From NCBI GenBank assembly GCA_947630595.1, contig CANRIG010000027.1, positions 1 to 36,978 on the forward strand: DNA of 36,978 bases, in the 5' to 3' direction. The position numbers and the translations under genes are program-made. Positions 31,392-34,479 of this stretch are shown here, piece by piece (positions within the stretch are counted from its first letter, which is position 1; every line of letters starts with the position of its first letter). The notes below the pieces were generated by a model. That model was not told the origin of the DNA and did no database searches. It saw only the letters and a list, made by a program, of their open reading frames with translations. The stretch is from an uncultured Lachnospiraceae bacterium (GTDB lineage Bacteria; Bacillota; Clostridia; Lachnospirales; Lachnospiraceae).

Positions 31392-31433
31392 AGCACCAGC
31401 CTCCTTTCAAAAAGTCCGGCGGCTGACGTAATC

Positions 31434-31478
31434 GCCCCTTCGGCTCCCCGGTTGAGCACGTTATAGCCGGGGCATTAT
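31434..31478. other. Hairpin in the toxin 5' leader
   Basis: CCCCGG and CCGGGG (about 31447-31473) pair around a 15-nt loop. The element lies in the long 5' untranslated region of the toxin mRNA. On the plus strand it is followed by a T-rich tract, so a second plus-strand terminator is possible. Confidence 0.5.
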
Positions 31479-31568
31479 TTTATTTTCTGTTTGCTTTCTG
31501 CGTTTTATCTGTCTGTTCTCTCATTGCCTGCAGTTATCTTGCCGACTTATATTTTTGTCTTCTGATTC

Positions 31569-31597
31569 AGTATACTGCCTGCACAAATAACATGCAA
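31569..31597 (-). promoter_or_regulatory. Toxin promoter
   Basis: On the minus strand TTGCAT (31597-31592) and TATACT (31574-31569) are separated by 17 bp. The start would be near 31562, giving a toxin message with a 5' UTR of about 170 nt, which is usual for type I toxins whose leader controls translation. Confidence 0.7.
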
Positions 31598-31655
31598 CCG
31601 TGTATTTTGTATGAACTTGCGGACACCTTTTTGTACAGTTTACATAAAATCAAAA

Positions 31656-31676
31656 GCTGCACGCAGCATTTTTTTT
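31656..31676 (+). terminator. Hairpin with T8 tract
   Basis: GCTGC-AC-GCAGC (31656-31667) is followed by A and eight Ts. An A-rich 5' flank allows extension. It would stop any plus-strand read-through from the toxin locus before the ftsH promoter. The stretch from 31677 to 31835 shows nothing else I can name. Confidence 0.7.
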
Positions 31677-31835
31677 GACGGGAGTCGATTTTCGGCAGGA
31701 AATGATTTTCAGCAGAGAATTACCAGAAGAAAATGTCGGGTTCGCGCCGGACACAAAAAAATCACAATATTTTCCAAACCCGCATAAACTGGGCACTTTT
31801 CCAGCTAAATTTAGAAAACATTTATATTTCCACTA

Positions 31836-31864
31836 TTGATTTATAAGTTTTGGATAATTATAAT
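31836..31864 (+). promoter_or_regulatory. ftsH promoter
   Basis: TTGATT (31836-31841), 17 bp, TATAAT (31859-31864). The start site is expected near 31871, within the first arm of the cloverleaf-like element, so the leader is close to 295 nt long. Confidence 0.8.
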
Positions 31865-31865
31865 G

Positions 31866-31948
31866 TAACTTATCGGAATCCGCGAAGCGGATTTGCCGCA
31901 TCCATTATGATGGAGGCGGCATGCTCTGCAGGAGCAGCCGATAAGTTA
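31866..31948 (+). ncRNA. Cloverleaf-like four-way-junction element at the 5' end of the ftsH leader
   Basis: An 83-nt segment is almost fully paired. P1: TAACTTATCGG (31866-31876) with CCGATAAGTTA (31938-31948), 11 bp. P2: AATCCGC-GAA-GCGGATT (31877-31893). P3: TGCCGC-A-TCCAT-TATG-ATGGA-G-GCGGCA (31894-31921). P4: TGCTC-TGCAG-GAGCA (31922-31936). Only G937 (31937) is unpaired at the junction. It is not a tRNA. If transcription starts near 31871 the outer part of P1 is lost, but six or so P1 pairs remain and the RNA 5' end is held in a helix. It could be a regulatory RNA, a stability element, or a palindromic DNA element. No known riboswitch class was recognised. Confidence 0.7.
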
Positions 31949-31950
31949 AC

Positions 31951-32166
31951 GAGGGAAAATGCGGAGCATTTTTTCGAGTCTGGTTAAACAGAGGAAAAGT
32001 GCAGGGTGCTTTTCCGGTCTGGTGAAGCAGAGGAAGAGTGCAGGGTGCTTTTCCGATCTGGTGAAGCAGAGGAAGAGTGCAGGGTGTTTTTCCGGTCTGT
32101 GAAGCAGAGGAAAAATGCAGGGCGTTTTTCCGGCCTGTTATGCAGCAGAAAATGCGGAGGAAACAT
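31951..32166 (+). repeat. Tandem 38-40 bp hairpin repeats in the ftsH leader
   Basis: Five copies (31951-31990, 31991-32029, 32030-32068, 32069-32106, 32107-32144) and a partial sixth run directly into the ftsH start. Each holds a hairpin of the form GGAARAG-TGCAGGGTG-CTTTTCC, with paired changes between copies (for example GGAAAAATG with CGTTTTTCC). The linker is GGTCTGGTGAAGCA-like. The partial last copy supplies the GGAGG ribosome binding site (32156-32160) of ftsH. Purine-rich arms and T-rich arms give each copy a terminator-like look. Confidence 0.85.
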
Positions 32167-34479
32167 ATGGATAACAATCAACAGAGAAATAACCGGCCGC
32201 CCGGCAATCAGGGACCGCAGGGCGGACCGGACAGAAACCGTTCATCGTTTACGGTCTTCCTGATTGTGACGCTGGTTGCGCTTTTAATTGCAGCAATGAT
32301 GAACAACATGAGAAACAGCACGGCGGCGGTGGAAGTGACGTACGATGACTTTCTGGATAGACTGGACCGCGGGCTGGTTCAGAGCGTCACCATCAGTTCC
32401 ACACGGATTGAGTTCACGCAGAATGTGGCGGGCGAGGTGGCCAACTGGATCGCCGGGAGCCAGATGCAGGGAGCGACTTACTACACCGGCAATCCGGACG
32501 ACCCGGATCTGGTGAAGCGGCTGGAGGAGGCCGGCGTCAAATTTGAGGCCGAGATACCGGACGGGACTTCGAGCCTGATTCTGGAAATGCTGATCAGCAT
32601 CGTGCTGCCGATTGTGCTGCTATGGATCGTTTTTGGTGTCATCATGCGCAAGATGGGCGGCGGTGGCGGCGGCATCATGGGCGTCGGCAAGAGCAAGGCC
32701 AAGGTGTATGTGCAGAAGGAGACCGGCGTTACCTTTAAGGATGTCGCGGGTCAGGACGAGGCGAAGGAATCGCTGCAGGAGGTCGTAGATTTTCTGGAAA
32801 ATCCCGGCAAATACACGACCATCGGCGCCAAGCTGCCGAAAGGCGCGCTTTTGGTGGGCCCGCCCGGCACCGGCAAAACCTTGCTGGCGAAAGCGGTGGC
32901 AGGAGAGGCAAAGTGCCCGTTCTTCTCGCTTTCCGGTTCCGATTTTGTGGAAATGTTTGTCGGCGTCGGCGCGTCGCGTGTGCGCGACTTGTTTGATGAG
33001 GCGAAAAAGAACGCGCCGTGCATTATATTTATTGATGAGATCGACGCGATCGGCAAGAGCCGCGACAGCCGTTACGGCGGCGGCAACGACGAGCGGGAGC
33101 AGACGCTGAACCAGCTGCTGGCGGAGATGGATGGTTTTGACACTTCCAAGGGCCTGCTGGTACTGGCGGCGACCAACCGCCCGGAGGTGCTCGACCAGGC
33201 GCTGCTGCGTCCGGGGCGTTTTGACCGACGCGTGATCGTAGACAAGCCGGACCTCAAGGGCCGCGTGGACGTGCTCAAGGTGCACGCAAAAGATGTCAGC
33301 ATGGATGAGACGGTGGATCTGGAGGCGATTGCGCTGGCGACGTCCGGCGCCGTCGGTTCGGACCTGGCCAATATGATCAACGAGGGCGCGATTCTGGCCG
33401 TCAAGAAAGGCCGCAAGGCGGTATCCCAGCAGGACCTGTTTGAGGCGGTGGAGATCGTGCTCGTCGGCAAGGAGAAGAAAGACCGCGTGCTCAGCAAGGA
33501 AGAACGGCGGATCGTTTCCTACCATGAAGTCGGCCACGCGCTGGTGAGCGCGCTGCAGAAGGATTCGGAGCCGGTGCAGAAAATCACGATTGTGCCGCGT
33601 ACCATGGGCGCGCTCGGCTATGTGATGAATGTTCCGGAGGAAGAAAAATTCCTCAACACGGAAAAAGAAATCCGCGCGATGCTGGTGGAGTTTGTGGCCG
33701 GGCGTGCGGCGGAGGAAATCGTATTTGACACGGTGACGACCGGCGCGGCCAACGATATCGAAAAGGCGACGCGCGTCGCCCGGGCGATGGTGACGCAGTA
33801 CGGCATGTCCAAGCGCTTCGGCCTGATGGGCCTGGAGATACAGGCGAACCAGTATCTGGACAACCGCCCGATCATGAACTGCAGCGATGTGACCGCGGCC
33901 GAGGTCGACCAGGAGGTCATGGGCGTGCTCAAGGATTCCTACGAGGAAGCGAAGCGCCTGCTCACCGAGCACCGCTCGACGCTGGACAAGATCGCGGAGT
34001 TCCTGATCGAAAAAGAGACCATCACCGGCAAGGAATTTATGGACATTTTCCGGGAAGTGGAAGGCATTCAGGAGACCGGGGAAAAGACGCCTGTTTCGCG
34101 GATTTCCGAGAAAGCGCATGAGGAGCCGAAAGCGGAAGCGCAGGCAGTACCGGAAGTTCAGCCGGGAGTACAAGCACAGGCAGCGACGGAAGTTCAGCCG
34201 GGAGCACAAGCCCAGACAGAGCCGGAAACTCAGCCGGAGGTACAAGCCAAGACTGCACCGGAGGTTCAGCCGGAGGTACAAGCCAAGACTGCACCGGAGG
34301 TACAAACACAGGCAGCGGAAGTTCAGCCGGAAGCACAAGCGCAGGCAGTGCCGGAAACTCAGCCGGAAGCACAGGCCCAACCTGCACCGGAAATACAAGC
34401 CCAGCCTGTACCGGAAACCCAGCCGGAAACAAAAACTCAGTCTGAGCCGGAACAGAACGAATCAGCGCCGGAAAACTGA
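32167..34479 (+). CDS. ftsH: ATP-dependent zinc metalloprotease FtsH with long C-terminal repeat tail
   Basis: A 770-residue membrane-anchored AAA+ protease that degrades misfolded membrane proteins and regulatory proteins. ATG 32167 has GGAGG 6 nt upstream; the frame stays open through the leader repeats, but that is not family sequence. TM1 is at about 27-45, an extracytoplasmic domain follows, and TM2 is at about 135-162. The AAA module has Walker A GPPGTGKT (231-238), Walker B FIDEIDA (Asp290, Glu291) and the SRH ending in RPGRFDRR. The protease site is HEVGH (453-457), with the third zinc ligand Asp530 in ANDIEKAT. Residues about 657-770 are an unusual Pro/Glu/Gln/Ala tail of degenerate repeats such as [12 protein letters not shown], absent from most FtsH proteins. 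Confidence 0.97.

Follow-up and report, generated by a model that had tools for sequence, protein, structure and literature searches.

Rickettsia palindromic elements are palindromic repeats that can be inserted in frame within genes; they share both traits with the repeat described here and are, to our knowledge, unrelated to it in family and anatomy. BOX elements of Streptococcus pneumoniae resemble it as short, interspersed, structured repeats of variable length, and have been judged parasitic and likely to affect co-transcribed genes (PMC3049150). In the available part of that source, the terminal inverted repeats of BOX are likened to an insertion sequence, whereas the closing helix of our repeat (P1) varies from site to site and begins at a constant distance from a TATAAT-like hexamer. 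The bcr1-bcr18 repeats of Bacillus cereus are likewise dispersed in untranslated regions and operon gaps; some are MITE-like and some have conserved RNA folds, but the accessible text describes neither an inverted copy of the host flank nor a promoter offset (PMC3446304). REP sequences of the REP/RAYT systems are short hairpins with a conserved foot, present in many copies and partly inside genes, as is our repeat; the feet given in the accessible portions of the sources are GTAG, GTGG, CGTC or, for class 3, CnGA, in contrast to ACGA on the 5′ and GAGTCT on the 3′ side here (PMC3733652, PMC6006769). A REP/RAYT assignment is not supported: the foot in our model alignment is ACGA instead of GTAG, GTGG or CGTC, and the conserved module lies at none of the 30 Y1 loci fetched from among the listed Y1 matches. 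Finally, template-switch hairpins share with our repeat perfect stems made from an inverted copy of neighboring DNA, whereas the part of the source at hand describes no conserved module or target motif for them (PMC8794818). As far as the available text of these sources goes, none reports a module that is joined to an inverted flank copy with its anchor at a –10 element (PMC3049150, PMC3446304, PMC3733652, PMC6006769, PMC8794818). Our literature searches turned up no account of this repeat family that we recognized; the main text of PMC8040213 mentions neither ftsH nor Blautia, and its supplementary table may hold the family.

The window analyzed is a 36,978-nucleotide stretch of DNA from an uncultured Lachnospiraceae bacterium, in which the repeat lies directly behind the ftsH promoter. 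Neighbors upstream of ftsH include pyrG, on the opposite strand, and the gene for PTS enzyme I. The features of the locus are the following:

31836..31864, plus strand: native ftsH promoter TTGATT-17-TATAAT, found by a scan and present in relatives with and without the element
31866..31876, plus strand: 5′ strand of P1, TAACTTATCGG, starting one nucleotide after TATAAT; from the folds and the fixed offset
31877..31893, plus strand: arm 1, a hairpin of 7 bp with loop GAA; from the fold, with changes on both sides at 7 of 7 pairs in the seven-copy alignment
31894..31921, plus strand: arm 2, a hairpin of 6+5 bp around a 1x1 A/G mismatch; from the fold
31922..31936, plus strand: arm 3, a hairpin of 6 bp with U-G as its last pair; from the fold
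31938..31948, plus strand: P1′, CCGATAAGTTA, the inverted copy of 31866-31876; from the fold and the seven-copy alignment
31949..31981, plus strand: 3′ module, ACGA-hairpin-GAGTCT; from the covariance models of the module and of the cloverleaf plus module
31954..32155, plus strand: 5.2 degenerate, module-like tandem units of ∼39 nt that reach the ftsH ribosome site; tandem modules also occur in other copies
32167..34479, plus strand: ftsH (NCBIfam TIGR01241, 766.9 bits at a cut-off of 600)

The end of the ftsH gene itself (34124-34452) carries tandem repeats with periods of 24-129 nt, mostly 36 nt, which code for a PEVQ-rich tail.

An earlier note on this DNA had proposed a four-way junction at the start of the ftsH leader, and RNA folding of 31830-31955 bears it out (–48.6 kcal/mol; z of –5.26 against dinucleotide shuffles, with 0 of 200 shuffles equal). 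P1 (11 bp), arm 1 (7 bp), arm 2 (6+5 bp) and the single unpaired base at the junction came out as described; only arm 3 differs, with 6 bp instead of 5 in the minimum free energy (MFE) structure, which counts the U-G pair. The A/G mismatch of arm 2 is also seen by eye in the copies of two other genomes (G003 and G025). The reverse strand of the cloverleaf folds similarly (z –6.36), as does its single DNA strand (z –10.0), and folding therefore cannot choose RNA over DNA. No Rfam 15 family matched anywhere in the window at gathering score; below threshold, nothing convincing appeared at E up to 10 in 31400-32300 or at E up to 1 in six related loci. A search for tRNA genes found none, and a search for a phage or plasmid origin gave no match at E up to 1.

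The element extends 3′ of its previously reported end, since the module follows directly after P1′. Its hairpin foot, AC-GA..GA-GT, allows a tandem G.A, which is replaced by Watson-Crick pairs in two copies at the acs locus (G035 and G037). A fixed-geometry count over 51 distinct module sequences gave 33 G-T against 1 A-C in the stems, mostly at a single stem position and shared by descent rather than independent, with the C-A variants of G023 left out; an earlier free symmetric count of mismatches over hairpins was too sparse to be useful (GT+TG 6, AC+CA 1, p 0.125). To the right of the module, copies share nothing beyond GAGTCT and a purine. At three loci (L312, L276, L277), the sequence after GAGTCT shows by eye a weak, direct-repeat-like similarity to the left flank, possibly a target duplication.

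A word search and two covariance models revealed many dispersed copies unrelated to ftsH. The word TATAATGTAACTTATCGG, with at most two mismatches, gave 101 hits in 30 of the 47 genomes of the genus, compared with 5 hits for the reversed control. With a 37-position model of the module, matches at E up to 0.1 were obtained in 35 of these 47 genomes, in 21 of 299 genomes of the family (the window's own genome, G000, and G025 among them) and in 4 of 246 genomes of the order, all four belonging to the same family. The model of the cloverleaf plus module, built from seven copies, matched 33 of the 47 genomes at E up to 0.01; matches spanning at least 90 nt occur in 28 genomes, while the others are shorter and lack most of the cloverleaf. 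Such long matches make up 58 of the 88 rows, one row being the window's own copy on the other strand. The window copy is in the training sets of both models, and its own score is thus high by construction. Copies lie at acsB-acsD, plsX, glgC, ruvB-zapA, hpt-ftsH2, tetR and elsewhere. Within G000, the matches are at ftsH, on contig C34 (a tandem array between the genes for an iron-dependent alcohol dehydrogenase and a serine acetyltransferase) and on contig C77 (between acsB and acsD). A BLAST search with the cloverleaf returned a single full copy in this genome, which is misleading since the models also match C34 and C77; likewise, a strict pattern joining P1′ to the module found one place only, and the covariance models were used instead.

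At L370 (G023:C31:306500-310500), a regular expression finds a tandem series of six module hairpins flanked by hpt and an ftsH gene different from the one matched at C31:556081-558354, and the repeat thus meets ftsH genes in two contexts. In another genus, a MITE-like repeat of genome G137 (L348-L363; 18 matches in the genome) encloses the same module hairpin, and its long copies have near-constant ends, GTAATTATTCAGCACCCC/GGGGTGCTGAATAGTTAC. Yet another repeat, TTATCGGAA..TTCCGATAAAAGGCGCGGATACGCGCC..CCTGTAATATA, occurs at L156, L160, L161, L163 and L164; it starts with the same TTATCGGAA word and is tandem at ∼94 nt in L161.

The family has a common architecture of P1, often three hypervariable arms, P1′ and then the conserved ACGA-stem-GAGTCT hairpin, and homologues with compensatory changes were found among ftsH leaders, in an alignment of acs elements and in an alignment of seven copies with a TAAC-type P1. 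The acs element was extractable from 27 of 29 acs loci, one per genome, and its location hardly changes across the genus. We aligned 16 of these 27, dropping 11 that were longer, shorter or near-identical: a stop codon opens P1, three arms, P1′ and the module follow, and changes on both sides occur at 34 of 50 consensus pairs. The seven TAAC-type copies include three ftsH leaders (three genomes, two genera), and all seven have folds with z-scores of –5.3 to –9.3. Five of them show the full cloverleaf in the MFE structure; in G226 this structure leaves much of arm 2 open, and in G120 the cloverleaf appears only in the centroid. In their alignment, where arm 1 of G003 is shifted by one position, all cells of P1 pair, 4 of the 9 P1 pairs covary, and 96.8% of the cells in the tested helices pair, compared with 85.7% in shuffles.

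At ftsH, TTGATT-17-TATAAT is the sole promoter-like site in 31600-32200. As 0.9 such sites are expected by chance, the weight of this site comes from conservation in the genus: 29 of 30 loci fit TTGATTT..TATAAT-like by regular expression and the thirtieth (L130) does so by eye. This promoter precedes leaders both with and without the element; that of G022, for example, is almost identical to the one of G015 but is followed by a 38-nt leader lacking the element. We read the leaders of 37 genomes (39 rows, which include one duplicate and one fragment). Seven of the 37 have a P1 helix of the window type at the leader start, with TAACTTATCGG, TAACATGTCGA, ACATGTCG, TAACCTGTCGGG, TAACCTGTCG or ACCTGTCGG and matching partners, and five of these seven run into ACGA within two bases. 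Helices of at least 8 bp (G-U allowed) lie equally early in 15 of the 39 rows and in 295 of 1950 shuffles; as shuffles give them too, the shorter helices in the other leaders are no evidence.

The earlier note had also placed the mRNA 5′ end inside P1. This is retained as a prediction, with a start at about A31872 if the promoter spacing is normal, but only 5 bp of P1 are then left in the RNA, and the outer six pairs cannot form in that mRNA. RNA folded from 31872 still gives a four-way junction with a shorter P1, and the 3′ module pairs differently in this MFE structure. If the predicted start is right, the outer pairs indicate an origin or upkeep at the DNA level. Bases 1-6 of P1, which should lie outside the promoter's transcript yet belong to the inverted repeat, are the main argument for creation or maintenance at the DNA level. 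The argument depends on predicted starts, and a transcript reading through from upstream would include P1 in full.

P1 keeps a fixed position at loci other than ftsH as well. Of 26 loci chosen by hand, 17 carry a hexamer that matches TATAAT in at least five of six positions and is separated from P1 by a single base; the match is poorer in the remaining 9. The background is 123 of 16133 T positions (0.76%), giving p ∼3e-30, to be read in the light of loci that are not fully independent (three are ftsH and two plsX). The set comprises 25 of 58 rows plus tetR; excluded were a further 21 acs copies, 5 rows with weak matches (L293, L311, L317, L322, L380) and 7 rows that are later copies in a tandem or duplicates by orthology. 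We took as P1 the longest stretch of perfect complementarity that is anchored at the base preceding ACGA; its perfection follows from this definition while its length does not: helices of at least 9 bp occur in 25 of 25 representatives and in 5 of 5000 shuffles. A –35-like hexamer is found for 21 of 27 copies with an exact TATAAT (7 of the 27 being ftsH) and for 1 of 11 without. The base at position 7 of P1, the expected start, is a purine in 23 of 26 loci. Within the window's genus, the P1 sequence varies from locus to locus; the ftsH-type copies have their own consensus, TAACWTATCGG, and their P1 may be borne by the element rather than copied from the host.

Two copies show P1 made of host codons. 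In G183, it consists of the end of obg (the codons for DYYK, the stop and the following bases), which is conserved in relatives. The module with its inverted copy is present in 1 of 28 obg loci, namely that of G183, and 26 readable relatives have neither (one further contig is truncated). At this one locus, we thus find what is expected of a template switch, an inverted copy absent from relatives that keep the ancestral flank; it is a single event, and the nearest empty sites come from other genera. In G163 (L365, G163:C1), the module lies in frame inside an hsdS-type gene (type I restriction specificity), whose frame stays open, and P1 provides the codons for LPYEKL; that YEK is native was judged by eye against the second half of the same protein. 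Neither copy has a good –35 box, but both have GATAAT or TACAAT at the same offset.

How, then, is the repeat best understood? The notion of an RNA specific to FtsH control, such as a thermometer or riboswitch, we regard as highly improbable. The same architecture does stand at the ftsH promoter in G000, G003 and, in another genus, G226 (arm 2 partly open in the MFE structure), and 7 of 37 genomes retain P1 with compensatory changes; however, 30 of the 37 leaders lack it, so that it is not both conserved and confined there, the same architecture precedes unrelated genes, no Rfam family matches, and the arms are hypervariable. This part of the earlier interpretation is not supported, while its alternative, a mobile palindrome, fits the dispersed copies better and is favored here. 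A genuine RNA element, a 5′ or intercistronic mRNA stabilizer or processing site that spread by duplication and was selected for RNA pairing, is a serious possibility to which we give less than even credence. In its favor, the repeat and its nearest downstream gene share a strand in 19 of 23 loci, or 20 if the overlapping reverse ORF at L271 is discounted (27 entries, minus three without the module by regular expression and one without a downstream gene, with orthologues counted separately). A first pass on bare ORFs was misled by antisense ORFs into an opposite downstream gene at L110 and L265, and the final pass required a ribosome site for that gene. The acs placement across the genus, with 34 of 50 pairs covarying, looks like that of a maintained element, which would speak against mobility; the G-T excess (33 to 1) points to an RNA strand rather than DNA, and the exchange of the tandem G.A for Watson-Crick pairs in G035 and G037 is on the same side. 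An RNA element does not explain why P1 includes bases before the predicted start, why the obg and hsdS copies use host codons as their 5′ strand, or why 30 of 37 genomes lack this P1 at ftsH. Moreover, the related repeat of G137 lies in both orientations: 10 same-strand, 6 opposite and 1 with none among the 17 copies read (16 from G137 and 1 from G292, in which 14 other fetched regions did not match the pattern).

An ordinary MITE or REP, with fixed inverted ends and a standard transposase, would account for the near-constant ends around the module in the long G137 copies, but in the window's genus P1 differs between loci instead of forming constant terminal inverted repeats, and GAGTCT and a purine are all that the right sides have in common; we consider it rather unlikely. 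A search for PF01797 gave us no mobilizing enzyme, a point that also weighs against the mobile reading favored here: Y1 transposase genes occur in 24 of the 47 genomes, but the module is near none of the 30 loci fetched, where two loose GAGCCT matches were judged unrelated. Sporadic template-switch mutation, which according to the part of the source available creates and maintains perfect hairpins (PMC8794818), would place such hairpins at random and leaves the conserved module and the fixed TATAAT offset unexplained; we hold it to be very unlikely.

The repeat is a small dispersed DNA element with a conserved hairpin end and, just before this end, an inverted copy of the DNA that starts one base past a hexamer, TATAAT-like at most sites. 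We think it likely that this DNA repeat forms fold-backs and is probably mobile, and that it is retained mostly in the sense orientation and transcribed as a structured leader. Such a repeat could be acquired by fold-back or template-switching, in which the strand beyond the site would template an inverted copy of itself that becomes linked to the module, a step possibly favored by the opening of the DNA at a promoter. The ftsH copy sits on a native promoter, which in relatives also occurs without the element. Transcription would start inside P1, and the new RNA would fold at once into three hairpins. The resulting structured 5′ end may affect the lifetime of the mRNA or its expression, but would not be essential to ftsH; the 5′-end protection suggested before is possible as a side effect. 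More tentatively, and with a probability that we put rather low, this may be a new form of DNA mobility, in which the element targets the –10 region of promoters, possibly the opened bubble, and fold-back copies host DNA with each insertion. Copying would start at a fixed point behind TATAAT, and each copy would thereby acquire a closing helix specific to its site.

When a hypervariable leader is perfectly paired and shows compensatory changes, this usually counts as proof of a functional RNA. Here, the outer pairs lie before the predicted start and host codons can form the 5′ strand, so copying by DNA fold-back can imitate the covariation of an RNA. If the targeting of –10 regions holds, insertion would be tied to the initiation of transcription in a way that can be tested, and the repeat would supply new structured leaders throughout the bacterial family.
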